Assembly (NCBI GenBank): GCA_011037195.1
Contig: JAAEAF010002672.1
Location: 1-64,000 of the forward strand
DNA length: 64,000 nt
Source: Triatoma infestans
Taxonomy: Eukaryota > Arthropoda > Insecta > Hemiptera > Reduviidae
Direction of reading: 5' to 3'
This document shows positions 5,560 to 47,519 of the stretch, in pieces. The stretch's first letter is position 1, and each line of letters begins with the position of its first letter. A model generated the notes under the pieces. It ran no database searches. It was not told the DNA's origin and saw only the letters and a program-made list of their open reading frames with translations. A program made the position numbers and the translations under genes.

Positions 5560-6420
5560 TAGCCTCATTTTCCGCGCTTAAGGAGGTATTTGCTGGAAAT
5601 TTCTTTAATTTTTTGCTCAATTGGTACCACCTTACCAACTACACAAGCTGCAAGTACGCCTAAGGAAAAGATTACGATGACACTTGTGCAGTCGCAATTG
5701 ATTCAGGATTTCTGGCCACCACGCCGCATCAAATGCCCCTTCCACGTCAGCGATATCAACATTACTTTCTTTTTTTTGTTAAGTTTACTTTCTATCGTTT
5801 CTTTTACTTCCAGAATAGCATCCGTCGTGCTTGATTGTGGCCTGAACCCAAATTGGTCGTAATTAAGCTTCCCTCAGAATACAGTTGGTAAATTATCCTA
5901 TCAATCATAAGTTTCTCTAAGACCTTGCCTCCCTCAGGAAGAAATCTGATTGGTCTAAATTTTGTATATCTTTTATTTTTCAGGTTTTCTATCACACTCG
6001 ACTTCGTTTTGTAAGAATGGGATATCGTTTTCAGTGTTGCGCTTTTTCCAATTATTTGATCTAATCAACTCATGCTCCTTGAAGTCATCTGCTGTTTTGT
6101 CTTGAGGTATCAACTTTTTTAATAGATATTCATAAGTCTGCCATCAGATTTCGTTATTGTTGTAACTGTTTATATTTACCCATTATGGTTTTATAAATGG
6201 AATTCCACACGTTATTTTTATCAATGTCATTGCATGCCTCTTTCCATGTTTCAATTTTTGCTTTTCTTATCATATCCGAATATATTTTTTTAAATTCATA
6301 ATATTCAGCTTTTCGCTTTTCTCGTAAACTTACGTTCGAGTAAGTTCTTTGAAATAGTCTTCTTTTTCTGTTCGTCTTTTTCCTAACTTTCGTTAACTCA
6401 CTATTCCACCAAGGTACCAC
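5560..6420 (-). pseudogene. R1-type LINE, reverse transcriptase fragments
   Basis: Seen on the minus strand: a linker 'PWWNSELTKVRKKTNRKRR' (6420-6350), a finger block 'RPIRFLPEGGKVLEKLM' (about 5960-5905), and an 'EGAFDAAWWPEIL' block near 5700-5740. The last matches the A-F-D-x-A-W-W-P signature of R1-clade reverse transcriptases. The frames differ and the palm block with the catalytic YxDD is missing, so there is a deletion between 5560 and the RNase H fragment. Non-functional. Confidence 0.7.
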
Positions 6421-6953
6421 TCTCCTACGTTTCGTACATATCTGACAAAGTTTTGTGTAGACAGAGTAAGGTCTATGTAACTTTCCCCGTTTGAAGTCTG
6501 AAAAGTTGGAATGGAAGTATCCTCATTTAAAACAAAAAGCGATTCTTGCATTAAAAATGTTTCTAACTCCCTCCCACGATTGTTTGACAGTATATCGTAC
6601 CAGTAAGTAGAACGGGAATTAGAGTCCATACATATCAGACTAGGCACCGTTTTATATTCTTGTAAAACATTTCTCAATTTATTTAAGTTTGACGTTATGT
6701 CTGCAGTGTGATCGAAATAAGCACTAATCCCCATTAGTTTAAAACTTCCATATATTAGTTGTACCACTAAATATTCATCAGATACTTGTGAAATCAATAT
6801 TGCATCAATTTTTGGGTTCTTAATGATTATAGTCGCTCTTTTAATACCAGAACCAGACTGAAAAACTCTATAATTATATAGAAAACCTTTTATTTTATTT
6901 TCAAAATTGTAGGGTTCTTGTATGAAAGCCATGTCAATCCTTCTACTTTCCAT
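6393..6953 (-). pseudogene. R1-type LINE, apurinic-like endonuclease domain
   Basis: A 186-codon frame begins near the start of the endonuclease domain. It has 'IDMAFIQEPY' (metal-binding Glu), 'MDSNSRSTYWYD' (Asp-Ser-Asn block), 'NNRGRELETFL' and 'SYIDLTLST' (Ile-Asp-Leu-Thr). These are the landmark blocks of the endonuclease of R1/TRAS-type non-LTR retrotransposons, which nicks the target DNA. The last part before the usual S-D-H motif is cut short at 6393, where the frame shifts into the RT linker. Confidence 0.8.
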
Positions 6954-14998: not shown

Positions 14999-15286
14999 TG
15001 TAGGGAAGTAAAATCGATGTGCTGATAGGAATCGATAGAGGAGGTCACAGATGATTAAAAAAAGATATACCAGGTGATATAGTGCGAGAGGGAAGTGAAA
15101 ACGTGAAGGCGAAGAGTTTTTCGGTGAACCTTTGAGAAGCATATTTAAGTAAGGAGAACGTTTTAAAATCGTAAGCAGAAGCGGTTTATTTGAGAAGAAC
15201 TGTTAAAACCAATAAGTGTAATTCGTATTTAAATAAAGGCTGAGCTGAACCTTGTTGCAATTGACTCAATCTAATTTAATCCTACA
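14999..15286 (+). repeat. 5' LTR (288 bp)
   Basis: Starts TG and ends CA. It contains an AATAAA polyadenylation signal at about 15231-15236 and a TATTTAAG box-like segment near 15141. Same length and, by eye, same sequence as 19164-19451. Confidence 0.92.
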
Positions 15287-15290
15287 ATTT

Positions 15291-15308
15291 TGGGGGCCGC
15301 TCCGGGAT
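15291..15308 (+). promoter_or_regulatory. Candidate primer-binding site
   Basis: 'TGGGGGCCGCTCCGGGAT' begins four bases after the LTR. It agrees with the classic tRNA-Pro primer site at 15 of 18 positions; the three central bases differ, so another tRNA isoacceptor may be used. Confidence 0.6.
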
Positions 15309-15798
15309 TAATTGCAATAAAAGGTACAGCTTAAAGAAGAATATCCAGGTAAAAAATTTTAAAATTGAGTTTAACTAAGAAGAGGTTAAAGGAACAGTTT
15401 TATGTTACATATGTTTATTTTTTTAGACAAAAAATTTAAATTAAAATAAAAAGAATAATATTAAAGAAAAGTCTGGTTACTGCAACCTATTACACCTATC
15501 TAAATTTTCATTTTATATTTCTTCCTTGTGTTACTAAGAAGACTTATTTTACCTTTGCAAGTAAATAAGTTGATTTATAGTTGAAGAGACATTCAGTTAA
15601 GATAAGTTGTTTATATTTAAATGGTTTAGTATTTCATATTATGTTCACCATTGTTTGATGTTGACTTACAGCTTAATTTAATTTTGATATTCTGCTAGAT
15701 TGAATTGAATATTAGTTGCAAGTTAAAGAAAGAAGAAATAATAAAAAAGTAAAAGTTGTTTGATTTTGTTGATTAAATTTGAATTAAATTTAAACAAG

Positions 15799-18700
15799 AT
15801 GAAAGTACTAGGCGACTTTCCTAAGATACAGTTCAGTCTGAAGCTTGCATCTGTTAACGCTATTAGGTTACTGCACGAAATTATTTTTGGAAAAGGAGGA
15901 AAATCAAGATTATTGAGACAAGATCTAAGAAATTTCTGTGGTTTCTCTTTTGACGCAGATTCGGATGAAGGAAAACGAAAAATCAATGAGATAAAAGATA
16001 ATCTCTCATTGCCTGATCTTACGATTGCCTGCCATGTTCTTGATTTATATTATAAAGGAGATGAAACTACACTCGCCACCAGATTGGTCAAATTCTTATG
16101 TAACCTAGAAGCGCCGACAGAGGTTCCGAATTCCCTCGAAATGGGAGAGGATGACTTTGACGAAGAGCAGGATTCAGACAATGAAGAGAAAGTTTGGGAA
16201 AAGCAAAGGGGTAGTTTCGAAGAAGGAACCCAATTAAAAGGCAGGGCCTCAGACATGAGCTTCCGCTATGAAAGAGACAAACCTGAGCGATTTAGCCTTA
16301 CCTTTCGAGACGTGGAAGATTCGATTAGAACGTTTGATGGTAAAGGTGGATACCCTATAAAGAAGTGGATAGACGACTTCGAGGAAATAGCTGATGTGGC
16401 AAGATGGAGCGAATTTCAAAGGCTTATCTATGCGAAAAGGCTACTCAAGGGTATGGCCAAGACTCTTATGCAGGCGGAAGGTGGAATTGTGAGTTGGTCA
16501 CGCTTAAAATTATTTCTAAGGGAAGAATTTAAAGAAACAACTACCGCTACTGATATCCATAAACTGCTCATTAAGAGGAAAAAGAAGAGAGATGAAACTT
16601 TTGAAGAGTACCTAGCAACCATGAAGGAAATAGGGAGCCGCGCAAATTTAGACGCTGAATCAGTTATACAGCATGTTATAGATGGGATTCCAGATGAGCC
16701 CGAAAGAAAGGCAATTCTTTATGGTGCAGAAACTTATAATGAATTTAAGAAGAAATTGAAAACTTATTCAAAAATTAAATCAGATATAGCTGAGTCCAGT
16801 ATGACAAGAAGTAGCCAGGGATCATTCAGGAAAACCAGAACGGACAGCAGTAAGTTTGCACCCACAAAGGACAAGACCCAAGAAAGAAATTGTTACAACT
16901 GTGGGGAAAGAGGCCACAAGGGTAGGGAGTGTCCTTTTAGGGAAAGGGGACAGAAATGTTTCAAATGTAATGAGTTTGGACACATAGCTCCAGCTTGTAC
17001 CAAAATTAGACCATCTGAGAAAGAAAGGAACATAAGTCAAATGACTGTAAATCTTCCAAATAATCAGGTTCCAATCAAGATTGAGAACCACCAAACATCT
17101 GCACTGTTGGACACAGGAGCCGACGTGAGTGTGCTGAGGGAAGATATGCATTCAAGAATTGGTTCACCAAAGTTGTCGCCTATGAAGATATGCCTGAAGG
17201 GGATAGGTGATTCCAATGTGGAAACACTCGGCTCCTTTCAAGCTAATATTAGTCTTCAAGACAAAGAATTTCCTTTACGATTTCATGTCGTTCCTTTGGA
17301 AGCTATACAGACGCCTGTTGTTATCGGAAGAGACATCTTAGACCAAGCAGATATATTTATGACGTCATCGGAAGTTCAAATTAAGAGGAAAGAGGATGAC
17401 AACTTTTTAATACAACTAAGTATTGAGGAAATAGTTGGAGATTTACCTGATGCAGATATTGCTCCACCAGAAAATGTGTTGTTCGTTTGTAAATTGAATC
17501 CAGTTACGACTGATAAAGATTTAGAAATAATCTTTAGTCGTTTTGGCAAAGTCAAAAGTTGTGAAATTATCAGAGATCATGCAACAGGGGAATCAATACA
17601 ATATGCTTTCGTTGAGTTTGAAGAGCAAAGATCTTGTGAACAAGCATATTTGAAAACGGATAATGTATTAATTGACGATAGAAGGATTCATGTTGATTTC
17701 AGTCAGAATGTTTCCAAAATAAAATGGAAAGGAAAGGGCCGTGGGGTTCAATACTTTGTTAAGATTGACGAGAAAGAAAGTAGTCGAAGTAACTCAGAAC
17801 GATATGGAGGAGGAAAGAGAGATCATTGTAGAGAAAGAGATCGAGATAGAGATCGTGAACGAAGTGATAGGAGAAGAGATGATAGATGGGGTTGTGAAGA
17901 TGACCGACGGGATGAGGAAGGTAAAAGGCGATATGATCGAAGAAGGGATGACGAAAGAAGAGGTGATGACAGGAGGCGAGGTAGCATGGATGATGACAGA
18001 GGAAGAGGAGAAGACAAGAAACGAAATGGAACGGAAAGAAGAAGTGGTATTGAAAAAGAATCTAGCCGAAAAACTGAAACTTCTGATTCTAAAGAAGAAA
18101 GATTTAGGGAAAGCAAGAGTTCACTTGAAAACAAAGAAGAAAACAGTAGAAGGGAGTGCTCTAAATCAACAAATCGAGACAAAAATTCCAGTCAAAGAAG
18201 CATCAACACTACCCCGTTCAAACTATTATTTGGAGTCAAGATAAAAAACAAAGAAGACCTCAAGTTGAGGAAGGAAATAGAAGCAGAAGTTGTAAATGAA
18301 TTCCAAGACTTGAGAAAAGAACGAGGAAAACAAAAGAAATTAGCGGAAAAGGCTAAAATAAAGAAACAGATTGCTAGTGCCCCTGAACCACAAGAGCAGG
18401 AAACTGTGGAAGCTGTTCATGAACCACAGGCGAAACCTGATGAATCAAAAGAAAAGTCTGAAGAGCCACAAGAAGGTGACGATGATGATGAAGACGATAA
18501 GAAGAAAAAGGAAGGCGAAAAAGAAGAGAAAGAAAAACCAGGAAAACCTAAGAAGAAAGCAATAACAGCTATGCAGGAAGCTCTAAAGAAAATCAAAGAA
18601 GAAGAGGAAAGATTAGCGGCTGAAGAAGCAGAAAAGTTAAAGAAGGAAGAGGAAGCGGAAAGAGCCAGACAAGAACAGATACGGTTGGAACAAGAACGAA

Positions 18701-19149
18701 AAGAGCGTCGAAAACAGAAAGGAAAAGGAAAAAAAGAGCGTTTAAAAACGGAAGGCAAATTATTAAGTTCCAAACAGAAAGCTGATCAGGCTCGTGCCCA
18801 AGGCCTACTTGAAGCGATGAAAGCCATGCGTATAGCAGCAGCTGGTGGGTCCAGCGATCAGCAAGTGGTAGCACCACCTAAACCTAAACTATCCACTAAA
18901 TTGAAGAGAAAACAATTTGATGGTCCAAAAAATGTTCATGTGGAAATAGTGGACACTCCTGCTTCTGTTGAACAACCTACATTTCCTGTTGAACCAATGC
19001 CAACATCTCCAGTTTTATTGGATGAAAATGAAGATGTGCAAGATTCATGGGATAGAGAATCTGATAAAGATGAAGATATAGCTGAAAGTAGTGTTGCTGA
19101 AAGAAAGAATCAAGAGATACATCCGGACGAATTCGAGGCGAATTCTTAG
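15799..19149 (+). CDS. Gypsy gag-protease / PPIL4 / integrase scrap / eIF5B fusion protein
   Basis: The ATG at 15799 opens 1116 codons with no break. Residues 155-330 resemble a Gypsy gag capsid region ('[19 protein letters not shown]'). CCHC knuckles follow at about 364-400 ('[14 protein letters not shown]', '[14 protein letters not shown]') and an aspartic protease at 435-446 ('[11 protein letters not shown]') with 'VVIGRDIL' downstream. Residues 556-650 are the RRM of cyclophilin PPIL4 ('[19 protein letters not shown]', '[15 protein letters not shown]'), followed by its Arg/Asp/Glu-rich tail to about 800. Residues 802-843 are Gypsy integrase C-terminus ('[13 protein letters not shown]'). 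Residues 843-1100 are the lysine/glutamate-rich N-terminal region of eIF5B ('[20 protein letters not shown]', '[20 protein letters not shown]'). The last residues look like Gypsy again, up to a TAG. PPIL4's isomerase domain and eIF5B's GTPase are absent. The host parts are intronless and in frame, as expected of RNA-level capture. Confidence 0.88.
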
Positions 19150-19163
19150 CAGGATGGCCGAGT

Positions 19164-19451
19164 TGTAGGGAAGTAAAATCGATGTGCTGATAGGAATCGA
19201 TAGAGGAGGTCACAGATGATTAAAAAAAGATATACCAGGTGATATAGTGCGAGAGGGAAGTGAAAACGTGAAGGCGAAGAGTTTTTCGGTGAACCTTTGA
19301 GAAGCATATTTAAGTAAGGAGAACGTTTTAAAATCGTAAGCAGAAGCGGTTTATTTGAGAAGAACTGTTAAAACCAATAAGTGTAATTCGTATTTAAATA
19401 AAGGCTGAGCTGAACCTTGTTGCAATTGACTCAATCTAATTTAATCCTACA
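19164..19451 (+). repeat. 3' LTR (288 bp)
   Basis: Identical by eye to the 5' LTR. No clear polypurine tract precedes it: the 14 bases upstream are 'caggatggccgagt'. After the ORF's TAG (19147-19149) the same frame stays open for eight codons into this LTR and stops at 19174-19176, suggesting that the ancestral polyprotein ended inside the LTR. Confidence 0.92.
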
Positions 19452-30506: not shown

Positions 30507-30703
30507 TATGAGGAGCAAGGGGAGCCACTAATTTTTTCAAGTTTGTTGCGTCTGTTCCACGGCAAAGCTTGTTTTTCTCTCGTTGTTTGTTTAGTCTGTG
30601 TTTTCTAAGTAACGCAGTTTGGCGGAAAGGAACCATCTTAGGAGAGGAAAACTTTATGCCTTATTGTCTGCCTACCTTATTAAATTTGAGTTTAATGCTA
30701 AAA

Positions 30704-31969
30704 ATGGACGTTTACCGTTTAATTAAAGATGAAATTCAATATGAGTTGAGGATAAGAGGACTCAGGGATGACGGCACTTGTTCCGAGCTAAGGAAAAAGC
30801 TTCATAGTGCGCTAGTTAAAGATATAAAGCCCGATACCGCTATAGTTTCTTTGCTTGACTCCAAAGAGGAGCTGGAGGTTTGTGAGCGTAAATTCCGATT
30901 CCTACACGAGGCCGTTTCAGGTATAGACGAGGACACGGAAGAAAACGAACTAAAGCGCCTAGACGCTCGATTATGGCATTTGTATCACCGATTGGCAAGA
31001 CTCCCGCGCGACGCGCATACAGAAAAGGTTATCGGTAATTTGATAGAACGGGTGCAAGACATGTGGGCCGATGTTCGGGAGGGTTTGCAAGAGTCGGGAA
31101 AGCAAAGAACGGAGCCTTCGTTGTATCAGGAATTAGCCCAAGCGGAGTGCCAGGAGGGTACCTCTCGTCAGCAACCCCTGAAGAAACCAGTACCACTCCC
31201 CCCAGAACGATCTCTATCGCCTCCCAGGGATCCAAAAAAGTATCTACGGGAATCCTTGACTCCCCCTTCTGTGGCGCCAACCCTAGATCAACTGAGGCAG
31301 CAACTTAAGGACATTGAGCGTAACATTAGGGAGAGGGAGCGGAAAGAAGCAGATATTGCTCCTATCGATAGTCGATACCCTACCAGAGACCCTAAGCTAT
31401 ACAAATGGGGCCTCACGTTTACAGGAGATGCGTCCGGCGTGTCGTTGGCTAATTTTCTGAAAGAAGTTGAAGAGCGAATGTTTGCTAGGGGACTTTCGGA
31501 GCAGGACTTGTTTCGTGGAGCTTCGGATCTCTTATCGGGTAACGCGAAGATCTGGTTCCGCGCGAACAAGCACAAGATGTTGTGCTGGAGCGATTTAGTA
31601 AGGGAACTAAAAACCCACTTCCAGGACCCCGATTATGATGAACGGTTAATGCTGGAAATCCGACGGCGTACCCAGGGAACGGATGAACCGCCACATGTTT
31701 ATATATCCAAAATGAATTGCCTTTTCAATCGGCTCAGTGAACCCCTCACCGAGCAACAAAAATTGCGCATCGTGGAGAAGAATATTAAAAGGGATCATTT
31801 GCCTTTTGTCGCCCAGGCTCAGTACAGTAACCTGGAGGAATTAGAACGCATCCTTACACGGCTAGACACATGGACAATTAGAGCCGAGAGGTATAGGGAA
31901 CCCCCAGTGAAAGGATTGCTGGAGCCGGAGTTGGGACACCGCCCCCGGAAACAGTCGACCGCAGTATAA
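30704..31969 (+). CDS. Gypsy-class gag
   Basis: The likely start is the ATG at 30704 ('MDVYRLIKDEIQYEL'); the frame is open upstream, with other ATGs at 30656 and 30692. The N-terminus looks SAP-like, the middle is proline-rich, and the region from about residue 220 is a retrotransposon gag capsid domain with 'SEQDLFRGASDLLSGNAKIW' and 'DERLMLEIRRRTQGTDE'. It ends 'RPRKQSTAV' without any CCHC zinc knuckle, although the capsid domain in this group is normally followed by one. A small deletion before the pol frame may have removed it. The reading frame is intact otherwise. Confidence 0.75.
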   Translation: MDVYRLIKDEIQYELRIRGLRDDGTCSELRKKLHSALVKDIKPDTAIVSLLDSKEELEVCERKFRFLHEAVSGIDEDTEENELKRLDARLWHLYHRLARLPRDAHTEKVIGNLIERVQDMWADVREGLQESGKQRTEPSLYQELAQAECQEGTSRQQPLKKPVPLPPERSLSPPRDPKKYLRESLTPPSVAPTLDQLRQQLKDIERNIRERERKEADIAPIDSRYPTRDPKLYKWGLTFTGDASGVSLANFLKEVEERMFARGLSEQDLFRGASDLLSGNAKIWFRANKHKMLCWSDLVRELKTHFQDPDYDERLMLEIRRRTQGTDEPPHVYISKMNCLFNRLSEPLTEQQKLRIVEKNIKRDHLPFVAQAQYSNLEELERILTRLDTWTIRAERYREPPVKGLLEPELGHRPRKQSTAV

Positions 31970-31991
31970 CAGTCACGGCGCCCCGCCAAGA

Positions 31992-33701
31992 ATGACGCGC
32001 TCTGACGCGGAATGGCGAGATTGGTTAGAGATGGTTCGAGACATGTGCGCTGGCTTGCAATACGGGCTAGGTAAAAGTGAAGAAGAAGCTGATGGCCCGC
32101 CTTATTTACGTGTAAGACTGTATGGAGTACCAGTGACAGGCTTGTTGGTCTCGGGTTCAACTCGCACAGTTATTAACGCGAAACTTTGGGATAAATTAGC
32201 AGCGCTAGGCCAAACTCTCAGCCTCCCTGAGAATGGAAAGATTACACTGGCTAACGGAAAGACATGCGAAGTTCAGGGAATCGCCACCGTACCGGTTGAA
32301 CTGGAGGGTGTCGTAAAGACGTTGAGAGTTCTCATGGTACCGAATCTGAAGGACCAACTTATATTAGGGATCGACTTTTGGCGTGATATGTCATTGGTGG
32401 TCGACCTATCCCAAGCCTCTTACTCATGTGGTGAGGCTCAGATTACAAGTCTGATAGAAGAGCAGGGAATCGTGGGTCAGTCGAAACTTGATGAGGGCCA
32501 GCAGAACCGACTCCAGGCTTTAATTAGCGCTTATTCCCAGAATAATGTGGAGCTAGGCTGCACTCGGCTGGTAGAACACGTGATCGACACAGGAGACCAT
32601 CCTCCGATTAAACAGAGGTATTATCCGGTGTCTCCCTTTATACAACGCATAATGAATCACGAGCTGGATATGATGCTAAGGGAAGGGATCGTAGAGCCCT
32701 CGAACAGCGGTTGGTCGTCGCCAGTCGTTATTGTAAGGAAGAAGGATGGCACGCATCGCTTCTGCGTTGACTATCGCGAGGTAAATAAGGTAACCAAGCG
32801 GGACGCCTATCCCTTGCCATACGTGTCTGCGATTCTAGATCGGTTAAGAAACAGCAGGTACCTATCGTCCTTAGACATTAAAAGTGCCTACTGGCAAATT
32901 CCAGTTGAGCGGAATAGTAGGGAGAAAACCGCATTTACAGTGCCTTATCGTGGACTATTCCAGTTTTGTCGTATGCCCTTCGGCTTACACAATAGCCCAG
33001 CTACGTGGCAGCGATTGGTTGATACCATTTTGGGACCAGCTTTGGAGCCCTATGTTTTCTGCTACCTGGATGATGTAGTAGTGGCCACACCTACGTTTGA
33101 GGAACACCTCCGTGTTCTCGAAGAGGTATTAAAGCGGCTGACAACCGCTGGCCTTACGTTATCATGGGATAAGTGTCAGTTCTGCCGCCAGGAATTAAAA
33201 TATTTGGGTTATGTGGTCAATGAAAATGGACTGGGAGTAGACCCAGATAAGGTGTCTGCAATCTTGAATTTTCCCCGGCCTACGACCATCAAGCAGGTGA
33301 GAAGGTTTATTGGCTTGGCTAGTTGGAACCGGCGATTCGTGCCTCACTTTTGCAGTACCATTGCAGCCTTGACGGAGCTGTTAAAAAAGAATAAGAAATT
33401 CGTATGGGGAACGCCACAGGAAGACGCTTTACTTGAATTACAAAACCGACTTGTTTCAGCCCCCATCCTAGCTTGTCCAGATTTTGAGCGTCCGTTCGTT
33501 TTGCAAACAGATGCGTCGTCGACGGGACTAGGCGCAATATTGAGTCAAGTGTTTAAGGATGGCGAGAGAGCAATCGCGTATGCCAGCCGTGCGCTAACGA
33601 ATGGTGAAAAAAAGTTTGCGGCCACGGAGTTAGAATGCCTAAGCGTGCTCTGGACTATTAAAAAGTTCCGCTCCAATTTAGAAGGCACGAAATTCTGGTA
33701 G
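31992..33701 (+). pseudogene. Gypsy-class pol: protease, reverse transcriptase, RNase H; truncated
   Basis: The frame is open for 569 codons. Residues 51-61 are the protease flap region 'LLVSGSTRTVI', where the family has a catalytic Asp in place of the Val at 53, so the protease should be dead. The reverse transcriptase has 'RFCVDYREVNKVT', 'LDIKSAYWQIPV', 'CRMPFGLHNSPA' and the catalytic 'CYLDDVVV' near residue 357. RNase H starts with 'FVLQTDASSTGLGAILSQ' near 503 and reaches 'ELECLSVLWTIKKF'. The frame then stops at a TAG, and 33702-33749 in another frame reads as the integrase core. About 1.5 kb of coding DNA is therefore missing. Confidence 0.8.
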
Positions 33702-33749: not shown

Positions 33750-33961
33750 AGTAGGGTAAATAGGAGGCCTTTGGCTCAGTAAACATGGCGGCCAAGGAGG
33801 AAGAAGATGTGTGATTGGTGGAAAGGAGGGTGGGTAGAATGGTTTTATGAAAAGGAGAGGACCCCTCTCTTCTACTCCCTCTCGCTCAAACGCTCTCTCT
33901 CTCTCAGTCGTTTTTCTGGTTCTCTTCTCTAGCTGTCTGGAGGAAGAAGAGGCGGGATGGG
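33750..33961 (+). repeat. Polinton left terminal inverted repeat
   Basis: Matches the reverse complement of 48631-48844. The only difference I see is six versus seven CT units at about 33889-33902. Confidence 0.93.
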
Positions 33962-34095
33962 CGGGGGGGGGAGGTTAGAATAATTGTATGAAAAGGAGAG
34001 GACCCCTCTCTTCTACTCCCTCTCGCTCAAACGCTCTCTCTCTCTCTGCAAAAAGTCGTTTTTCTGGTTCTCTTTACACTATTTCTCTAGCTATC
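33838..34095 (+). repeat. Tandem partial duplication of the left terminal repeat
   Basis: 33838-33939 ('gaatggttttatgaaaagga' to 'ctagctgtctg') is repeated at 33977-34095 with small changes ('gaataattgtatgaaaagga' to 'ctagctatctg') and two short insertions ('gcaaaaa' and 'tacactatt'). The right end has only one copy. Confidence 0.85.
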
Positions 34096-34279
34096 TGCAC
34101 ATCATGTCTATTTATTAAAATAAATAAATAACAGTTGACTTGCATATTTAAAATAAACATTTTATATCTGTACATCAACCTTTATGCACTAAAAAGCTGA
34201 TAGTCTTTTACTACTATATTACAAACCAAAATTGTTTTTTTATTTCATTTAATGCTCACAGTGTGACGGAGACACAACA

Positions 34280-34591
34280 ATGGCAGATCGTTGGATGGAT
34301 ATTGTAAATAGTGAAAATTATCAAAAGTTTATATCGAAATTATCTACTATTAATCTTCACAACATTGAATTAGCTCAAAGATTTATTGACTTAAATAGAA
34401 AATTATTGAAAATGGAAAAATATGCTGCTGAATTCATTGAAAGAGCACCTAACAAACATTTTAAACAATGCGTTTGGTCGAACCCTGACCAACAGACGGG
34501 GCCAGATACATGTCATTGTGTACTCATATCATTCTTGTCCAAGGATATTGATAATAATTTAAATGGTTTGGTGATAAGTGGGGATCTTTAA
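34280..34591 (+). CDS. Polinton ORF, unknown function (103 aa)
   Basis: ATG in 'caacaATGG', 103 codons. The protein is helical and hydrophilic ('LHNIELAQRFIDLNRKLLK') with no signal peptide or membrane segment. I do not recognise it. The next ORF starts 44 bases on in another frame, in the same direction, so the two may be pieces of one gene. Confidence 0.5.
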   Translation: MADRWMDIVNSENYQKFISKLSTINLHNIELAQRFIDLNRKLLKMEKYAAEFIERAPNKHFKQCVWSNPDQQTGPDTCHCVLISFLSKDIDNNLNGLVISGDL

Positions 34592-34635
34592 ACTTCAAGT
34601 GATGTGAACTTTTTTTGAATCAGTTGCACACAAGC

Positions 34636-35151
34636 ATGGCTAGATGTGAAATGGGTCTACAACTGACTACAAGTTTTCCACTCAACAAAAACCACTCTAA
34701 GGTATTAATAACTGGTCTCTCCCAAGATTATGTGCCTCTGGTAGCGGTGAGGTCGAGAAAAGATGTTATTTATCTACATGTTGAAGACTGGCTGACTCTG
34801 GAGTCAAACATGCAGACTTTCAATGACTTCTTCAACGGAAAACAAGCAATTCCTCCAAATGAAATTAACCTTAAGAATGCAACAATATATTTTCTTAAGT
34901 TTACATACAAAGTGATTTCCATCCAGGGAAAAGCAACTTGGTTGGAAGATCTTCTAAGTTTTCAACCTACCAAGATCAACCTGCTTAGAAATGAATACTT
35001 AAAACTTCAAAGCCTGTTTGAAGATGTAACTTTTCAGTTAAATTATCTGTCAAAACTTTGTACTCCTAATACATTGTTTCCATATTATCAAAAAAAAAAA
35101 CAATTTTACTCACCAACGCAAGTTTTATATTTATTTAAACCTCTAGTTTAA
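34636..35151 (+). CDS. Polinton ORF, unknown function (171 aa)
   Basis: The first ATG of this frame is at 34636. The protein contains 'RSRKDVIYLHVEDWLTLES', a style of block that I associate with small uncharacterised Polinton proteins, then a region with 'ATIYFLKFTYKVISIQGKA' and a Lys/Tyr-rich end. An A10 tract at 35091-35101 near the end could shift the frame. It converges with the integrase gene at about 35150-35213. Confidence 0.5.
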   Translation: MARCEMGLQLTTSFPLNKNHSKVLITGLSQDYVPLVAVRSRKDVIYLHVEDWLTLESNMQTFNDFFNGKQAIPPNEINLKNATIYFLKFTYKVISIQGKATWLEDLLSFQPTKINLLRNEYLKLQSLFEDVTFQLNYLSKLCTPNTLFPYYQKKKQFYSPTQVLYLFKPLV

Positions 35152-35212
35152 AAAAATTGTTAGAATAGTTAAGAAGGAAATCATAAAAAAAATCACATAC
35201 ACAAAGAAATTA

Positions 35213-36136
35213 TTAATTTATTAAGTTTTCTGTTCTTATCCAAGTAGGCTTTTTAAAGCCCAACCATCGTACATAAAGCTTATCATTTTTCCGTTTTAAT
35301 ATTTTTTCTACAAGATATACATCTTTATATTTAGTTTTCTGCAGTTCTTGAGTATAAAATGCTCCTTGAATAGGCTGTCCTGTCAAATCTTCCAACAAGT
35401 AAGTATATGGAATAGTCTCACGAACATTTTTAATTTTAAATATTTCAGTACTCCAATTGGGTGTATATCCTCTGCTAAATAGAGTTCTTCTTTTCGAAAT
35501 TCGTACATAGTCACCTTTATTAAATCGCTGTTTATCTTTTCGTTTTACTTTGGAAGAGTAAACATTAGCTAGTAAGAATTCTTCGTTATCAGAATTTACT
35601 TCTGATGGTGTCATACCCACCGTACGGTGTACTTTGTTGTTGTAGCTATTTATGAGATCTGATAAATGTTTTGTATAATTGTAGTTACCTTGAAGACTAA
35701 ACAATCGATACATCATAGATTTAAAGGTTCTATTAAATCTTTCAACAATTGAACTTTTAATTTGGCTGTAAGTACTGTAATGATTTATGTTGTGCTTTTT
35801 CATGAGCTTCTTGTAGGAAACATTGTAGAATTCTTTTCCATTATCAGTCTGAATATTTTTTGGTACTCTTCCAGCTGAATTAAAAATACTTTCCATAGCT
35901 TGAGTGATATCTTGAGCGCCTTTGGATTTAACAGGTTTCACCCAGGCGTATTTTGAAAAACAATCAATCACTGCTAATATGTATTTGTAACCATTATTTT
36001 GGCGAGCATATGGTATCATTTCCATTAAATCAGCCTGCCATAAGTCATCACCACCTTTGAGCAATGTACGTCTTCGAGGGTAGCGTGAACGTGCTGGCCT
36101 ATGAAGTTCAGCAACTACAGCCTCCTTGAAGGACAT
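35213..36136 (-). CDS. Polinton integrase (rve, with chromodomain)
   Basis: It inserts the element's DNA. The frame is open to 36172, but the first ATG is at 36136, giving 307 residues and a start just before the conserved 'RPARSRYPRRRTLLKGGDDL'. The catalytic triad is D36 ('WQADL'), D98 ('IQTDNGKEF') and E132 ('SIVERFNRTFK'), close to the D,D(35)E spacing. A C-terminal segment (about 265-307, 'YLVEKILKRKNDKLYVRWLG') is chromodomain-like, as in other Polinton integrases. A zinc-binding N-terminal domain is short or missing. It heads a minus-strand cluster with the next three genes. Confidence 0.9.
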   Translation of the reverse strand: MSFKEAVVAELHRPARSRYPRRRTLLKGGDDLWQADLMEMIPYARQNNGYKYILAVIDCFSKYAWVKPVKSKGAQDITQAMESIFNSAGRVPKNIQTDNGKEFYNVSYKKLMKKHNINHYSTYSQIKSSIVERFNRTFKSMMYRLFSLQGNYNYTKHLSDLINSYNNKVHRTVGMTPSEVNSDNEEFLLANVYSSKVKRKDKQRFNKGDYVRISKRRTLFSRGYTPNWSTEIFKIKNVRETIPYTYLLEDLTGQPIQGAFYTQELQKTKYKDVYLVEKILKRKNDKLYVRWLGFKKPTWIRTENLIN

Positions 36137-36228
36137 AGTTTTTGGTACTTTATCCTTTACGGAATCTCTCACATCTGATCTTTATTTCTAAAGATTAAAT
36201 CTTATATTTAACCACAACCCTTAAAAAC

Positions 36229-36663
36229 TTAATCGAAAATTGTTTTAAGTTGATGGGCTGTTAAAGGAATATTCGGATTCAATGCACTCAGTCTGTTTTT
36301 TATTGTTTCAAATAAACGATTTACATAATTCTGAGTCACTAGTTTTCTAGCCTGATCATATGTTTGTAAAAGATAATTTTTTGTTATGAAATGTTCATCT
36401 AGATAGTTCTGAAGGTACAACTTGCTTACCAAATCTAACTGATCTATATAACTTTCCAAGTAGGTTTTAGTAATAAATTCATTTTTTGTAGTAACATACT
36501 TTTCCAGATATCTCTTATTTACAGCATCGGAACCACTTAAAGGATCACTCACTCCCACTAACCGTTTATTTTCAAAATCAATATAATCACCATCTTCATC
36601 ATCACTTGCATGAAATACTTTCTTGATTTGGGGTAATGATCTACCAAACTTGTCAACAGGCAT
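36229..36663 (-). CDS. Polinton fibre-like protein (144 aa)
   Basis: Starts at the ATG at 36663 with 'MPVDKFGRSLPQIKKVF'. Residues 31-57 contain 'RLVGVSDPLSGSDAVNKRYL', the Gly-V-x-D-P-x-x-x-x-D-A-V-N-K-x-Y-L pattern found in trimeric phage tail-fibre and other viral fibre proteins. It is followed by repeated short units with aromatic spacing ('TKTYLESYI', 'SKLYLQNYL', 'TKNYLLQTY', 'TQNYVNRLF'), so the rest is probably a trimeric coiled or beta-fibre shaft. Role in attachment is inference. It lies between integrase and the PX-like gene. Confidence 0.6.
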   Translation of the reverse strand: MPVDKFGRSLPQIKKVFHASDDEDGDYIDFENKRLVGVSDPLSGSDAVNKRYLEKYVTTKNEFITKTYLESYIDQLDLVSKLYLQNYLDEHFITKNYLLQTYDQARKLVTQNYVNRLFETIKNRLSALNPNIPLTAHQLKTIFD

Positions 36664-36716
36664 GTTATTCTGTGGTGGTTAAGCTAGCAATGAACAATTC
36701 CCCATACCATACCAGT

Positions 36717-37826
36717 TTAATAAATAATATTAGCCTCTCTCAGCTCTTCAATTACGGATTGAATTTCATTTTCATGTCCTGTATGACCTGCACTGGTTGA
36801 AGCATATAGTAGCCTAAGTCGATCTACCAGTTCGTTGGGATCATCCCAATATTCATAAATACTTTGACCTTCCCACATGCCTTTACCAATTGTTTCCCTC
36901 GATCTTAGCGGGTATTTACCAGGTCTTGTTGCAATCAAAGTCAGAGGTGTTTGTCTGTTTGAAGCAGTTGCTGGTGGAGTATACCTAGTTTGTATTGAAA
37001 TTTGTTCCGGTGATTTGGAGGGGGGCTTGAAAAGAGGAGCGATGATATTTCTGTATTTCCATCCTCTGCTGGAACTCATTCCTTTTTCTTCACTAAACTG
37101 TCGCTTATGCGCATTACTTCTAATTAAAATGTCTTTATAACTGTCTAAATCATTTTCTGAATATTCTGTCGGTTGTTTTAAAAATAACAATTGTAACAAA
37201 CCTGGTGTACCTTCATACCATTTTCCATTTACATTAATATCATCACCATCTATGGTTACCTGAGCATTTCCAATGGTCATCCCACCTTTTGGTAGGATTC
37301 TAATTCCATATCTATCATCAAAATCTCTAGGATCGGCACTAATTATTTTCAGTAAATATGGTTCTATTAAAGAGCCAATATCTTCTTCCCCTCTTAAAGT
37401 TTTCTCCAATTCCTGTTTATCAATTTTTCTTACGTACTCTAAAGGAGTGATCTCTTCTACATTTTCAAACGTTTCTTCTTGTTTTATTGGGGCAGTATAC
37501 CTTTTCAGGTGCACAGGAGTAGAAGCTTTAATTGGTGAGTGTAAAGGTTCTTTAATTAGAGATTCTGTTTCTGTTGAAACATCTTTAGTAGAAGGTTTAA
37601 CCAGTGATTCCATTGCAGTTGAACCCTCCTTTTTCACTTTCAGAGGTAGATAATCTTGTTTTACCCGTTTTCCCTGTTGAATCAGCTCTTGTAGTGGTTC
37701 TGTTATAGGTTTCAAACTCTTTTCTAGTTCTTCCTGAGATGATTGAAGTCCACGCTTCATACTTTTGAATTTGTTGCGTAGAGATTTAGAAGTTTCAATA
37801 AGTTGTTTAGTAACCTTGGGATCCAT
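36717..37826 (-). CDS. Conserved Polinton protein (PX/PW-like), 369 aa
   Basis: The first 130 residues are charged and low-complexity. The middle (about 160-250) has 'YGIRILPKGGMTIGNAQVTI' and 'WYEGTPGLLQLLFLKQPTEY', and the C-terminus has 'DDPNELVDRLRLLYASTSAG' followed by 'GHENEIQSVIEELREANII'. I recognise these blocks as a protein conserved in animal Polintons, but its function is not established; the usual provisional labels are PX/PW. Start is the ATG at 37826. It lies between the fibre-like gene and the ATPase. Confidence 0.7.
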   Translation of the reverse strand: MDPKVTKQLIETSKSLRNKFKSMKRGLQSSQEELEKSLKPITEPLQELIQQGKRVKQDYLPLKVKKEGSTAMESLVKPSTKDVSTETESLIKEPLHSPIKASTPVHLKRYTAPIKQEETFENVEEITPLEYVRKIDKQELEKTLRGEEDIGSLIEPYLLKIISADPRDFDDRYGIRILPKGGMTIGNAQVTIDGDDINVNGKWYEGTPGLLQLLFLKQPTEYSENDLDSYKDILIRSNAHKRQFSEEKGMSSSRGWKYRNIIAPLFKPPSKSPEQISIQTRYTPPATASNRQTPLTLIATRPGKYPLRSRETIGKGMWEGQSIYEYWDDPNELVDRLRLLYASTSAGHTGHENEIQSVIEELREANIIY

Positions 37827-37857
37827 AACGGAATGAGAAAACTATTCTACTACCAAC

Positions 37858-38562
37858 TTATATATAGATAAATGTGTCCAACCCCTTCCGAAACCTACCA
37901 TTGTTAGAATCTCTTGTTTTGTCCAGAGTTATAAATCCATGCGGTTCCTCCCAGCATATATAACACATTTGTTTAAATTTATCAAATGGTACGTTGGGAG
38001 AACTTATATGATCACTGTAAACATGTTTTAAATTTAAATCATCCTGTTTGAACAATAAGATAAATTTGGCGTTGTCACGAATAAGATGTTTAGGGATCCT
38101 GGCATAACTTTGGCAAAGATAGAAGCAGTCAATGTTCTTGTGACGGCCCATACTAAAATATTTCCTAATATTTTCTTGCTCATCGATTGAAATATCATCA
38201 AATACTATGACAGAGTTTGGTTCTGCGTTATCAGGAGTAATTATTTGTTGAGTGGTGTTTACTGCATGGAATCCTATTTCTGGAACTAGTTTAAAAATCT
38301 CTTCTAAATATAAATATTTCTCTTGTTGAAGCGACTGACTGCATATGTATATGTGTGTGAATTTCAGCCCATTTGGTTGTAAAAGCAAACAAGCCATAAG
38401 ATTGGTTTTACCAGAGCCTGAACTTCCGCAAATAAGTGCTCGGATATTATCAGGCAGTAATGCTCCATGACGATTAATTTTCACATGGTCACCAATTGAA
38501 TTATTCAGGAGATTGCAGATAGGTAAACTTTCGTTTTGCTTCTCTAGACGCATATTGAACAT
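37858..38562 (-). CDS. Polinton DNA-packaging ATPase (FtsK/HerA type)
   Basis: It would pump DNA into the capsid. The frame is open above, through a (TA)n tract, to 38709, but the ATG at 38562 is the sensible start and gives 234 residues. Walker A is 'GSSGSGKT' at 46-53, Walker B 'VIVFDDI' at 118-124, followed by a sensor-like 'CFYLCQSYARIPKHLIRDNA'. Length is normal for Polinton ATPases. A 76-bp divergent spacer holding about 15 AT units separates it from the PLA2-domain gene on the other strand; promoters for both probably lie there. Confidence 0.9.
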   Translation of the reverse strand: MFNMRLEKQNESLPICNLLNNSIGDHVKINRHGALLPDNIRALICGSSGSGKTNLMACLLLQPNGLKFTHIYICSQSLQQEKYLYLEEIFKLVPEIGFHAVNTTQQIITPDNAEPNSVIVFDDISIDEQENIRKYFSMGRHKNIDCFYLCQSYARIPKHLIRDNAKFILLFKQDDLNLKHVYSDHISSPNVPFDKFKQMCYICWEEPHGFITLDKTRDSNNGRFRKGLDTFIYI

Positions 38563-38577
38563 GTTTGGTAAGGGGGT

Positions 38578-38579
<2 letters not shown>

Positions 38580-38611
<32 letters not shown>
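38580..38611. repeat. (AT)n microsatellite in the divergent Polinton promoter
   Basis: About 16 AT units between the ATPase start (38562, -) and the minor capsid start (38639, +). Its length may change spacing in the shared promoter. Confidence 0.85.
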
Positions 38612-38614
<3 letters not shown>

Positions 38615-38638
38615 TCAGATCCCACTAATGCCATCATT

Positions 38639-39364
38639 ATGAGAAGAAAAACTGTTGGAAGAGGTCTTATAAATTCAGTGATTAACAAACTACCTTTTGA
38701 AGTGCACATACCCGGTTATAGATTTTGCGGTCCAGGAACTAAATTACAAGAAAGATTAAAACGAGGTGATAGAGGCGTTAATCCTTTGGACGAAGCCTGT
38801 AGGGAGCACGACATTGCATACTCTCAACACAGAGATCTAGATTCACGGCATAAGGCTGACCTTATACTCGCTGATAAAGCTTGGCAAAGAACAAAGGCTA
38901 GTGACGCATCTTTTGGTGAGAAGGCATCAGCCTGGGCAGTTACAAACGCAATGAAAGCTAAAGTGAAATTGGGTGGTGGGGGGAAAAAGGTAAAAAAAAC
39001 TATTAAAGATGTTATAAAAGCAGCACGTGTGACTTCACCTTTATCGATTAGTGGTGCATCAAAGAAGGCTCTAAGAAAGGCAAAAATTTATTTAAAAAAT
39101 TCAAAACCATCGAAAATACCGAGAGTTTTACCAATACCAAGAACTGGTGGAATTCTTCCGTTTATAGTCCCATTATTTGCGGGATTATCTGCATTAGGAA
39201 GTTTAGCTGGTGGAGCATCAGCAATAGCAAAGGCAGTAAAGGACACCCAAGTTGCAAGGGATCAGTTAGAAGAAATGAGAAGACATAATAGAAAAATGGA
39301 AGAGCAGCAAATTGGTCAAGGATTTTATCTTAAACCATATAAAAGGATATGGACTTTACATTAG
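38639..39364 (+). CDS. Polinton minor capsid protein with phospholipase A2 domain (pVI-like)
   Basis: Residues 24-80 form a parvovirus-type phospholipase A2: calcium loop 'YRFCGPGT' (27-34) and active-site helix 'DEACREHDIAY' (51-61, with H57-D58). Parvoviruses use this domain to leave the endosome. A basic linker with a Gly4 run follows, then a long hydrophobic, glycine-rich helix ('ILPFIVPLFAGLSALGSLAG', about 171-190) and a C-terminal 'GQGFYLKPYKR' block. The second half matches the style of adenovirus pVI-like membrane-active proteins in Polintons and adintoviruses. Starts at the ATG at 38639 and heads a plus-strand capsid cluster. The domain call is firm; the role in membrane entry is inference. 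Confidence 0.8.
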   Translation: MRRKTVGRGLINSVINKLPFEVHIPGYRFCGPGTKLQERLKRGDRGVNPLDEACREHDIAYSQHRDLDSRHKADLILADKAWQRTKASDASFGEKASAWAVTNAMKAKVKLGGGGKKVKKTIKDVIKAARVTSPLSISGASKKALRKAKIYLKNSKPSKIPRVLPIPRTGGILPFIVPLFAGLSALGSLAGGASAIAKAVKDTQVARDQLEEMRRHNRKMEEQQIGQGFYLKPYKRIWTLH

Positions 39365-39413
39365 AAAAAAACACTGACTACTTCCTAACAGAGCACTCAC
39401 AAACATAGAATTA

Positions 39414-39728
39414 ATGAAATATGCTAAAAATGTTCCACACTTTAGGGGTGTATATATGCGTGACACGCTACCAAAATTTCCTAAAGCTGAAGAATGTGCT
39501 GTTGTAAATCTAGATTCAGCGTACAATGTTGGAACTCACTGGGTAGCGTATATTAAAAAAGGTAATCAGGTTATGTATTTTGATCCATTTGGGAATCTTA
39601 GACCACCATTAGAAATATTAAGTTATTTTAACAACTGTGAAATCATGTACAATCGTGAAAGATATCAAGACTGGAATACGCCTTACTGTGGACATTTATG
39701 TTTAGAATTTCTCTATAATAATGCATAA
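39414..39728 (+). CDS. Polinton maturation protease (adenain-type cysteine protease)
   Basis: It would cleave capsid precursors. The 104-residue protein has the adenain order of catalytic residues: H42 ('GTHWVAY'), D57 ('YFDPFG'), Q85 ('YQDWN') and C92 ('PYCGHLCLEF'). Length is normal for Polinton proteases. It starts 50 bases after the PLA2-domain gene, in the same direction. Confidence 0.9.
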   Translation: MKYAKNVPHFRGVYMRDTLPKFPKAEECAVVNLDSAYNVGTHWVAYIKKGNQVMYFDPFGNLRPPLEILSYFNNCEIMYNRERYQDWNTPYCGHLCLEFLYNNA

Positions 39729-39749
39729 CAAAGTTTATGGACATTAGTC

Positions 39750-40439
39750 ATGTCTTACACTTTTACCTTAACAGGTACATCCAGCATCCTTAGCGCTGAT
39801 ATATTTCCACCAATTAGTTTACTGGACGGAGCTGACTATAAGATTGGCTTACTTAGCTTCCAATCTTATAACTCAATTCCAAATATTATTGAAAATGTAA
39901 ACAATAAATTTTATTATGGTGACAGAGTTATTAGTATTCCTACTGGGAACTATGAGGTTGAAGCTATAGCAGATTATCTAAAAAGAAACATGGAATCACC
40001 TGATTCAATTAAAATGAAAGGAAATGTTAATACTTTGAAAATTGAGTTCAAGTGTACACAACCTGTTGATTTCAACAAAGAGTATTCAATTGGTCCTTTA
40101 CTAGGATTTACTCAACATAAAGTGTTGGAGGCAAACATTACTCATAAATCAGATGAGCTTGTAAAAATTCACGGTGTAAATGCAATTGCTGTAAATTGCA
40201 ATATAGCTGCAGGTTCATATAGAAATGGCAAACCTGGTCATACGGTATATGAGTTTTCTCCTACAGTCCCACCAGGTTATAAATTGGTACATGAACCTGC
40301 ACCAGTCATTTATTTTCCAGTCATTGGTGAGAGAATTGATAATATTACGCTGTCTCTTACAGATCAAGATAATAATCTGGTGAACTTTTGTGAAGAAGTA
40401 ATTACTATTCGATTACATTTGAAGAAAAATGGGTATTGA
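39750..40439 (+). CDS. Polinton minor capsid (penton) protein
   Basis: A 229-residue, beta-rich protein without membrane segments. It begins 'MSYTFTLTGTSSILSADIFP' and includes 'LGLLSFQSYNSIPNI'-style text (here 'IGLLSFQSYNSIPNI') and 'IRLHLKKNGY' at the end. These features and its place between protease and major capsid match the single jelly-roll penton of Polintons. It would form the capsid vertices. Confidence 0.8.
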   Translation: MSYTFTLTGTSSILSADIFPPISLLDGADYKIGLLSFQSYNSIPNIIENVNNKFYYGDRVISIPTGNYEVEAIADYLKRNMESPDSIKMKGNVNTLKIEFKCTQPVDFNKEYSIGPLLGFTQHKVLEANITHKSDELVKIHGVNAIAVNCNIAAGSYRNGKPGHTVYEFSPTVPPGYKLVHEPAPVIYFPVIGERIDNITLSLTDQDNNLVNFCEEVITIRLHLKKNGY

Positions 40440-40565
40440 TTTTAAAAGGTATAAAAGCAGTAACACTGGAGTTAAACCATCCAGTATTCAACGTTCCCCC
40501 CACAGAGTGTTAACACCTTCAAACGTTTACTTTCTACAACAAATAGGGCTTTTAGTTAAACCACA

Positions 40566-41776
40566 ATGGAAGAAGTATTAAATGTAAGTGATGGGGTGAT
40601 TTTCGAAGAGAGGATAACCAACTATGAATATCACACACACCAACCTTATACACAATCGCTGAACAATTCGGATGAGATAATTATTTCAGTACAACAACAA
40701 GACATTTTTACAGTGCCATCAAAGAGTTTTCTTTATATTCAAGGAAAAGTAGAAAAAGAAGAATCTTCAGCAAGTTTAGATGTGAGATTAGTGAGGAATG
40801 CTTTTATGTTTCTCTTTGATGAAATCAAATATCAGTTAAATGGAGTTTTAGTTGACCAGGTCCGTAACCCAGGAATTGTCAGCACCCTTAAAGGTTACGT
40901 ATCTTTCAACAGTGATAAAGTTAAAGCACTGGAAATTGCCGGTTGGATGTCTCCTAATACAGATGTCAAGCTTATTGATGATGATGGTAATTTTGATTGC
41001 TGCATTCCACTAGACACATTTATGGGCTTCTTTGAAAATTACAATAGAATAATACTACAAGGGAAACATGAATTAATATTGCATAGAAGTAGAAGTGATA
41101 ATGATTCTATTTTCACCGTTGGAGCAGCAGTTAACGCTTCTGTTAAACTTAAATCCGTGCAATGGAGAATCCCATATGTAAAAGTGTCTGATCAACAAAA
41201 ACTGAAGTTCTTGAATGTTATCAATAAGGGGAAGACCATACACATGGCATTTCGATCATGGGATCTTATCGAATATCCAACCCTACCTGCTACAACTAAG
41301 CATACATGGACATTGAAAACTACAACAAATTTGGAAAAACCCCGTTATGTGATAATTGCATTTCAAACCAACAGAAAAGATAACAAACTAGCAGATCCAT
41401 CAATTTTCGATCAAAACAACATTACTAATGTTAAACTACACCTAAATTCAGAGATCTATCCTTATGACGCTTAAATGTAAATTTTTCCAAGAATTATTTC
41501 AGTTTTCTGTATTATATGTATCAAAATTTTCAACATAGTTACTATGGAAAAGCAAACCAACCTCTTATGTCTAAAAATCATTTTAAAGATTATGCACCTA
41601 TTATTGTAATAGACTGTTCTCGTCAATCGGAAGCCATAAGATCATCTTCTGTTGACATTAGGTTAGAGATAGAATGTACTGAAGCTTTCAAGGCTAATAC
41701 CACAGCATATGCCTTAATTTTACATGACAGCCTCGTGGAATATAACCCTTTATCTGGCATCGTCAGAAGAATATAA
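40566..41776 (+). pseudogene. Polinton major capsid protein (double jelly roll), frameshifted
   Basis: The ATG at 40566 opens 302 codons with 'KSFLYIQGKVEKEE', 'AFMFLFDEIKYQLNGVLVD' and 'IPYVKVSDQQKLKFL', the order seen in Polinton major capsid proteins. The frame ends with TAA at 41472-41474. The C-terminal part continues in another frame, visible as 86 codons from 41519 ('MYQNFQHSYYGKANQP') to 41776. The frame change falls in a short A/T stretch near 41470-41476 and looks like a single-base loss. The capsid C-terminus is separated from the rest, so this copy probably cannot make particles unless the frame is corrected during translation. Confidence 0.85.
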
Positions 41777-41843
41777 TTGGTGATGTGGTGGGGTGGAGTG
41801 GATATAAATTAAAGTATTGTAAAGGAGATATTTACAGTCCATC

Positions 41844-42536
41844 ATGTGTGCTGTAGTGATAGATATACAAGGCTATCAAAGTGTTGATCACACATTTATC
41901 GTAAAGGAGCTGGCAATTGTTGACTTTAATGATATAGAGAAGCACTGGATATTCAAACCCCCATCTTATGGAAATCCAGACTCATCACCCAATAGATGGG
42001 TATACAGAAACCTTCATGGAATTGGATGGGGGGCTGGTGATATTGACTATTCTGAATTTGATGGTATTTTGAAGACTGCAACCGTCAATTATACTTACCT
42101 ATTTGCAAAAGGAGATGAAAAATGTAAATTCTTGGGTAATATAATTGGAAAGACTGTGTTTAATCTTCAAGATTTTGGCTGCCCCAGTATAAAACATCTA
42201 TCTCTATATCATCACTTCAACAAGTGTAACTATCACGCTGATTCTAAATACAATTGTGCTCTACAGTTTGGTCGAATGTTAGCTAATTGGATACTTCAGA
42301 ACTCTTCCAAGGTAGATTTTACCAACGCTAGTGTTAGGGGGAATACTTTTAGAACCTCCTATAAACTACCACTGAGCCCGGAGTTGCTGGCTTTTAATGG
42401 GTTTATCCAAATAAGAAATAAATGTCTTCAGTGTGTGTACTGTGGAATGATACTTTTAGAAGAAGTAATAAAAGAATGTCCTTGTAAATTACATTATGAT
42501 AACTGTACTTGGTGTAAAAAACATGGAATTAAATAA
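41844..42536 (+). CDS. Polinton-associated protein, possible exonuclease-like fold
   Basis: A 230-residue protein starting 'MCAVVIDIQGYQSVDHTFIV' and 'KELAIVDFND'. This type of opening is common to an uncharacterised family seen in arthropod Polintons and hints at a DEDD/RNase H-like core (Asp in 'IDIQG', Glu in 'KELAI'). The C-terminus has a Cys cluster, 'CLQCVYCG' plus 'CPCKLHYDNCTWCKKH', that should bind zinc. It is last in the plus-strand cluster. Function not established. Between its stop and 42914 there is only AT-rich DNA with polyadenylation-like signals. Confidence 0.5.
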   Translation: MCAVVIDIQGYQSVDHTFIVKELAIVDFNDIEKHWIFKPPSYGNPDSSPNRWVYRNLHGIGWGAGDIDYSEFDGILKTATVNYTYLFAKGDEKCKFLGNIIGKTVFNLQDFGCPSIKHLSLYHHFNKCNYHADSKYNCALQFGRMLANWILQNSSKVDFTNASVRGNTFRTSYKLPLSPELLAFNGFIQIRNKCLQCVYCGMILLEEVIKECPCKLHYDNCTWCKKHGIK

Positions 42537-42914
42537 AACTCTTTTTTTAAATTATTTCTTGTATTATTATTTCTCCTAAAACCAGATATATAGGTCAATA
42601 ATTAAGGCACAATTATTATTTTTAAAGTTTTATATTTCTACTTAATGAGTGGGGGTAAAATTTTTATACATATTAGTAAAGAACATAATTTTTATTTTTT
42701 AATTATTACAATATAATAATATAAGGGTGAATTAATATTTTATTAATATGATTACAAGCATTACATACAAAACAGAAAAGGGTATATAGAAATTATTTTC
42801 TATACATTATTATCAAAACTGAAATACATGTCATCAATAAACAAATAAATAAATATGTAATAAACAAATAAATTATTACAATCATAGATAGTTACATTAG
42901 CTGTTTCTATTCAT

Positions 42915-46782: not shown

Positions 46783-46900
46783 GATGATGATAGCTGTGTT
46801 GTCAGCAGTGGTGGAAAAAAGGATGTTTATTTGTTTATTTATTTATTTAATTAGTTACTTTTTTAGTGATTGCTTAAATTATTCTTATATGAACTTTTAG

Positions 46901-47519
46901 TTAAATGCGCAAGGGGTAAATTATTGTCCAACCTTCTTTATCGCACGATCTACACTTTTTTTTTATGCAATTGTACCTATTACATCTTATATAATTGTAT
47001 GAAGGCTTTAGGTTAATAAAAAAATTAAATATTATAAAAATAAGACAACTAATTACAGCAAAAGTTTTGTTTTTGCACCAGTAACGGAGGGATTTACTTA
47101 ATTTAAAAGAAACTAAATTTATTGGTTGAAGTGTCCATATTTCATTAAATTGGTGTCCAGTAGAAATTTCGAACCGACCTAGCGCAGCTATTACAACGTA
47201 CAATTGGCCGGTATTCAAATAAATGTTTTAAACAATTAAAACACTTGTTTTGTTCTCTGTGAAGATTTTTATTTTTTTGTTCTATTACTTTGTGCTCTTT
47301 AGAGAACACGACGCTCCTCCCCGGTAAAAGATCCTGATGAATTACAAGAAATGCACACTCCAAACACAATTTAATTGATTCGTCAAGTGAATGATCTGTG
47401 TCATAATTATGGCTTACAGTGGAAAAGGTTGTTGTAATAAAGGATGATTGAATACAGATATACCTATTGTAGGGTACTTCATCAAGTTGACTGCCAAGAC
47501 TACTATTAAGTACAGGCAT
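46901..47519 (-). CDS. Polinton zinc-binding protein, unknown function, possibly two exons
   Basis: The ATG at 47519 opens 124 codons with Cys pairs 'CLECAF', 'CFNCLKH' and 'CNSCAR', which look like zinc ribbons or a RING-like domain. A second frame (47218-46901) overlaps its end and carries another cluster, 'CNRYNCIKKKCRSCDKEGW'. They may be joined by a frameshift or an intron that I cannot place with confidence. No family recognised. Confidence 0.4.

Follow-up and report, generated by a model that had tools for sequence, protein, structure and literature searches.

Does the genome of Triatoma infestans contain an LTR retroelement that took up pieces of two host genes into one reading frame, and has such an element moved again since then? 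The question is raised by a 4.45-kb Gypsy-type LTR insertion with both ends present, located at 14999–19451 of the window. The window is the whole stretch of DNA that was analysed, namely 64,000 nucleotides of contig JAAEAF010002672.1 (assembly GCA_011037195.1; positions 1 to 64,000, forward strand).

Organization of the element and its reading frame

The features of the element are given in Table 1. A reading made from the letters alone, hereafter the sequence-only reading, had described one uninterrupted frame of 1116 codons between two identical-looking LTRs, and both points stood. The frame runs from the ATG at 15799 to the stop at 19149, or over 15760–19149 (1129 aa) from an upstream TTG, and the LTRs show 0 differences in 288 bases. 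Their TG...CA ends are as in Ty3/Gypsy LTR retrotransposons. By the rule of three, the divergence between the LTRs is at most about 1.0% at the 95% level, i.e., approximately 0.5% per LTR. The repeat search of the 64-kb window listed no further LTR copies.

Table 1. Features of the LTR element, with positions in the window
Feature	Position	Strand	Basis
5′ LTR, 288 bp	14999..15286	+	TGTAGG...CCTACA ends; same as the 3′ LTR over 288/288 bases
Primer-binding-site-like stretch	15291..15308	+	Begins 5 bases beyond the end of the 5′ LTR; read by eye
Gag N-terminal and capsid part	15799..16599	+	Likeness to gag-pol P0218
Two CCHC zinc knuckles and aspartic protease (LLDTGAD)	16600..17427	+	Pfam, sequence
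Captured PPIL4: RRM and RD/RE-rich tail	17428..18192	+	Pfam, structure-chain and homologue matches
Gypsy integrase C-terminal scrap, about 40 codons	18193..18315	+	tblastn with P0218 residues 1295–1355; joint comparison
Captured eIF5B N-terminal K/E-rich region	about 18316..about 19095	+	Structure-chain and homologue matches
Tail of the reading frame, including the stop	19096..19149	+	Differs from host eIF5B from here on
Candidate polypurine-tract position before the 3′ LTR	19150..19163	+	Read by eye
3′ LTR, 288 bp	19164..19451	+	Same as the 5′ LTR

The stretch that follows the 5′ LTR resembles a primer site which we take, as a putative label, to be of the tRNA-Pro type; a tRNA search of the 64-kb window for a primer match returned 0 tRNAs. 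The candidate polypurine tract has, by eye, a weak likeness to the end of P0229. Both flanks of the element consist of (TA)n, a context in which a target-site duplication could not be told apart.

The reading frame starts with a Gypsy Gag, two CCHC knuckles and an aspartic protease, as had been proposed, and continues with the PPIL4 part, the integrase scrap, the eIF5B part and a short tail. Pfam matches were obtained for zf-CCHC (5.2e-10), RVP (1.5e-8) and RRM_1 (1e-15), and the LLDTGAD motif of the protease is intact. Gag and protease together (15799–17427) are 38% identical to residues 1–553 of P0218, a gag-pol protein of 1440 aa, while the N-terminal and capsid piece of Gag (15799–16599), when taken alone, gave no Pfam match above the cut-off. 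These parts are related to gag-pol of the Gypsy order, with integrase after RT, as seen from the motif order in P0218. Among viral contigs, eight stretches fitted the pattern of the CCHC-protease part, and none was confirmed as a relative. The end of the frame had been assigned to Gypsy as well. It is indeed not eIF5B from 19096 on, but no pol relative matched 19096–19149; this tail is likely the end of the coding region of the parent element.

It had also been proposed that RT, RNase H and the greater part of the integrase were replaced, and their loss was borne out. No match to RT, RNase H or rve was found in the five pieces of the reading frame scanned by Pfam (15799–19104). Residues 554–1294 of P0218, which include the RT motif YxDD (755–758), the integrase zinc motif (1096–1133) and the end of the integrase core (1253–1256), have no counterpart in the element. 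Only residues 1295–1355 remain: tblastn with this stretch matched 18193–18366 (E 2.4e-9), and the 3′ end of the match reaches into the eIF5B-like part. Thus, the integrase scrap reported between the two host pieces is present and starts near 18193. Judged by sequence, the element is a Gypsy derivative and not an autonomous Gypsy element, because neither RT and RNase H nor the integrase core is encoded.

Captured segments and their joints

The PPIL4 segment starts just before the RRM, covers most of the RD/RE tail and does not include the cyclophilin domain; relative to Rhodnius, the tail is also shorter by one block of about 30 residues. Its start, previously placed at 17464, lies near 17428. 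The assignment itself was upheld by a match to residues 229–328 of the solved PPIL4 chain 7qtt_V (E 3.5e-51) and by a best homologue match to PPIL4 of Rhodnius neglectus (E 6.3e-118; 224 of 260 aligned residues identical). The second-best match was from Rhynocoris fuscipes. Both species belong to Reduviidae, and Rhodnius neglectus also to Triatominae. In a structure model based on 20 sequences, the RRM is predicted to have the order strand-helix-strand-strand-helix-strand, with pLDDT 64–84 over residues 11–80. Overall the model is a weak one, with a mean pLDDT of 53.7, values of 51–56 over residues 81–100 and none that reaches 90; it also predicts the tail after the RRM to be disordered.

The eIF5B segment does not include the GTPase domain. 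It matches residues 294–508 of the solved eIF5B chain 8pj3_0 (E 4.3e-17), in agreement with the N-terminal eIF5B sequence recognised earlier, and its limits are corrected from 18325–19095 to about 18316 and about 19095. The best homologue match was P0124, with 82% identity over 87% of the queried part, and the next was from Rhodnius prolixus, with 70% over 87%; the element is thus closer to P0124. Taken with the PPIL4 matches, the Rhodnius hits point to a likely reduviid host, perhaps a kissing bug. Both the PPIL4 and the eIF5B segments align to host proteins without intron-like inserts.

The claim of a double host-gene capture fused in frame with Gag was supported. Its route had been ascribed to two template-switch events, but two captures make four joints, which were found at about 17428, 18193, 18316 and 19096. 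At the first three joints, where both sides are identified, each donor keeps its own frame; at the fourth, the tail is without a matched relative. At the second joint, 15 residues of the element correspond to RDKNASVRK of the host protein and to NSTIQRSI or NSSSHRSI of the pol relatives. At the third, 13 residues of the element correspond to a host stretch of 13 residues and to REEGKKQI of pol. At both places the host protein is similar to pol, as would fit a template switch from one packaged RNA to another, the route that PMC5408686 gives for LTR-mediated retroposition. The first joint is less clear, and the fourth is not open to judgement. The template switching proposed earlier is still a matter of inference.

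We suggest the following route for the formation of the element. Pieces of PPIL4 and eIF5B mRNA would have been taken up when the reverse transcriptase switched templates inside Gag particles. Once complete, the chimera would have transposed several more times, its captured parts diverging along the way, until the last of these moves left the present copy. In these later moves, the chimera was likely copied in trans by enzymes of intact relatives, as predicted from its composition. It is possible that the fusion protein is still produced with a functional Gag and protease, and the RRM and charged tails might lend Gag added RNA binding.

Change since capture and competing explanations

The change in the captured parts was estimated from private changes, counted in trimmed segments at positions where both of the closest host proteins have the same residue, with joint residues excluded. 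The element differs at 16 of 200 sites in the PPIL4 part (reference pair P0004 and P0005) and at 19 of 207 in the eIF5B part (P0124 and P0125), that is, at 35 of 407 sites (8.6% of residues). Untrimmed counts that include joint residues were higher (18/204 for PPIL4 and 27/220 for eIF5B), and the smaller trimmed counts were used. A similar count for the nearest host proteins themselves gave 4 changes for P0004 and 5 for P0124. The 35 changed residues need at least 37 base changes, or 3.0%. The captured parts therefore carry about six times the change allowed by the age of the insertion, barring gene conversion of the LTRs or changes shared with the host genes. Indeed, the identity of the LTRs could stem from gene conversion, and some private changes may predate the capture, since the nearest host proteins stood in for the host's own PPIL4 and eIF5B.

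The RRM was compared with the best 120 of 3885 PPIL4 homologues. The element has I, T and N at sites where L, M and S occur in 120/120 of these homologues, I where V is found in 119/120, and K where D or E is found in 119/120.

The capture likely predates the present insertion, because the captured parts are changed by at least 3.0% and the LTRs by 0/288. Since the element is without RT and the integrase core, the re-transposition of the chimera after capture was likely carried out in trans. We place at roughly 0.8 the probability that this is a Gypsy-type element with a Gag-protease-PPIL4-eIF5B frame which was likely copied in trans and re-transposed after the capture of mRNA.

A first competing explanation is a one-off retrocopy, in which a single reverse transcription both captured the host pieces and made this insertion, with no movement afterwards. 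Identical LTRs would be expected from such an event, as would the finding of no other LTR copy in the 64-kb window. However, the RRM departs from residues that are fixed across all 120 homologues in the comparison, and a base change of at least 3.0% exceeds what a single reverse transcription would introduce, unless the host genes share it. On these two grounds the one-off retrocopy was rejected as improbable. A still smaller probability is given to a domesticated gene, i.e., a locus that works for the host as a fusion of Gag and RRM and has ceased to be mobile. The long open frame with host domains speaks for it, and maize Bs1 yielded an expressed chimeric gene according to reviews (PMC8616336, PMC13317346), but the lack of any LTR difference speaks for a very recent insertion and not for an old fixed gene, and this explanation was also rejected. 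Least credible of all is a misassembly of unrelated sequences: the three joints open to judgement keep the frame and lie between LTRs without a difference, and no host protein seen is identical to the captured parts, which therefore look unlike misplaced pieces of host genes. It was rejected for these reasons.

Of greater weight is the explanation that an old chimera re-transposed with the host segments as inert cargo. Here, only the LTRs, the primer site and a packaging signal would matter, and the frame would have stayed open by luck. When random substitution of the captured part was simulated in 2000 runs, the frame stayed free of stops in 2.95% of them at 4% per base (mean residue change 9.0%) and in 7.25% at 3% per base (6.7%), the observed residue change being 8.6%. 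Hence the chance that an unconstrained frame stays open is about 3–7%, which is not negligible. In addition, compared with random changes, the private ones are more conservative by a small margin, which does not clearly exceed chance (P 0.051) and does not demonstrate purifying selection on the captured parts. Against inert cargo stand the three judged joints in frame, the lack of any stop in the 573 codons of the captured part, and a total of no more than 6 private changes over the 105 codons of the RRM part (17428–17742), where an RRM-like fold is still predicted. Overall, we rate the inert-cargo explanation as a serious candidate whose chances fall somewhat short of even.

Returning to the trans-copied chimera as the preferred reading, we note that the frame has stayed open at a chance of about 3–7%, and this suggests that the fusion reading frame is in coding use. 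A stronger version, in which the captured RRM and charged tails were retained through repeated transposition as an aid to RNA packaging or translation in competition with the helper, is tentative and rather unlikely.

Known gene-capturing elements and other elements in the window

Acutely transforming retroviruses have Gag fused to a captured host oncogene, have lost replication enzymes and need a helper. In these viruses, captured host domains became working parts. In contrast, the present case is a retroelement of an insect genome, with no env and no oncogene. An animal element with recent mobility and measurable change after capture would let one ask whether captured domains become working parts here as well. 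With the autonomous Gypsy-type gag-pol proteins, P0218 and its kin, the element has Gag and protease (38%, residues 1–553) and the same integrase stretch in common, whereas P0218 holds the RT, the integrase zinc motif and the core end that the element lacks, and its listing shows neither a PPIL4 nor an eIF5B part.

For the maize element Bs1, Elrouby and Bureau reportedly used the words "hybrid open reading frame" in the title of a paper of 2001. According to reviews, Bs1 is the best described LTR element that fuses several host genes into one hybrid frame (PMC5408686, PMC8616336, PMC13317346). It contains segments of three host genes, for a proton ATPase, a xylan endohydrolase and a beta-1,3-glucanase, fused to a gag domain. 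Two features are shared with the element described here: several host gene segments lie in one LTR element (here PPIL4 and eIF5B), and they stand in one reading frame with gag (here open over 1116 codons). The differences are that Bs1 is a plant element with three captured genes, whereas here an animal Gypsy element has two, with an integrase scrap between them. By analogy, the element is likely an animal counterpart of maize Bs1.

Captured genes in LTR elements are known in large numbers from plants, with 672 in rice and 1,343 in sorghum as stated in PMC3726574. For animals, LTR-mediated retroposition was described by Tan et al. (2016, as summarised in PMC5408686), in which mRNA enters the cDNA of an LTR element by template switching at short similarities. 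The retrocopies described there come from one parent gene, whereas here two genes are joined in frame with Gag and protease and have changed since. Titles and abstract openings of openly licensed literature on PPIL4, eIF5B, Triatominae and gene capture in Hemiptera mention no such element. The statement in the sequence-only reading that this is not a standard annotation is therefore fair for insects within the literature searched, but a multi-gene hybrid frame was already known from maize Bs1. Gene-capturing LTR elements are thus not new in themselves; new, as far as searched, are an animal Gypsy-type element, two captures in frame and the signs of re-transposition.

Other elements were found in the same window. 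A second LTR-type retroelement at 30569–33701 consists of a gag frame (30569–31969) followed by protease, RT and RNase H (31992–33701). The minus strand at 6393–6953 carries an endonuclease-reverse transcriptase fragment (Exo_endo_phos_2, E 3.6e-17), likely from a LINE. The block at 33750–48844 is likely a polinton/adintovirus-like element with its ends, which are perfect inverted repeats of 156 bp (33750–33905 and 48689–48844). It includes an integrase core (35213–36172, minus strand), a Pox_A32-like ATPase (37858–38709, minus strand), a phospholipase A2-like gene (38639–39364, plus strand, E 6.7e-13), a gene for a double-jelly-roll-like protein (40566–41474, plus strand, E 1.6e-75) and a frame of 1142 aa (42915–46343, minus strand). 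Furthermore, near-perfect inverted repeats at 57083–57282 (89-nt arms at 94%) and 58221–58433 (60-nt arms at 95%) are perhaps small inverted-repeat elements.
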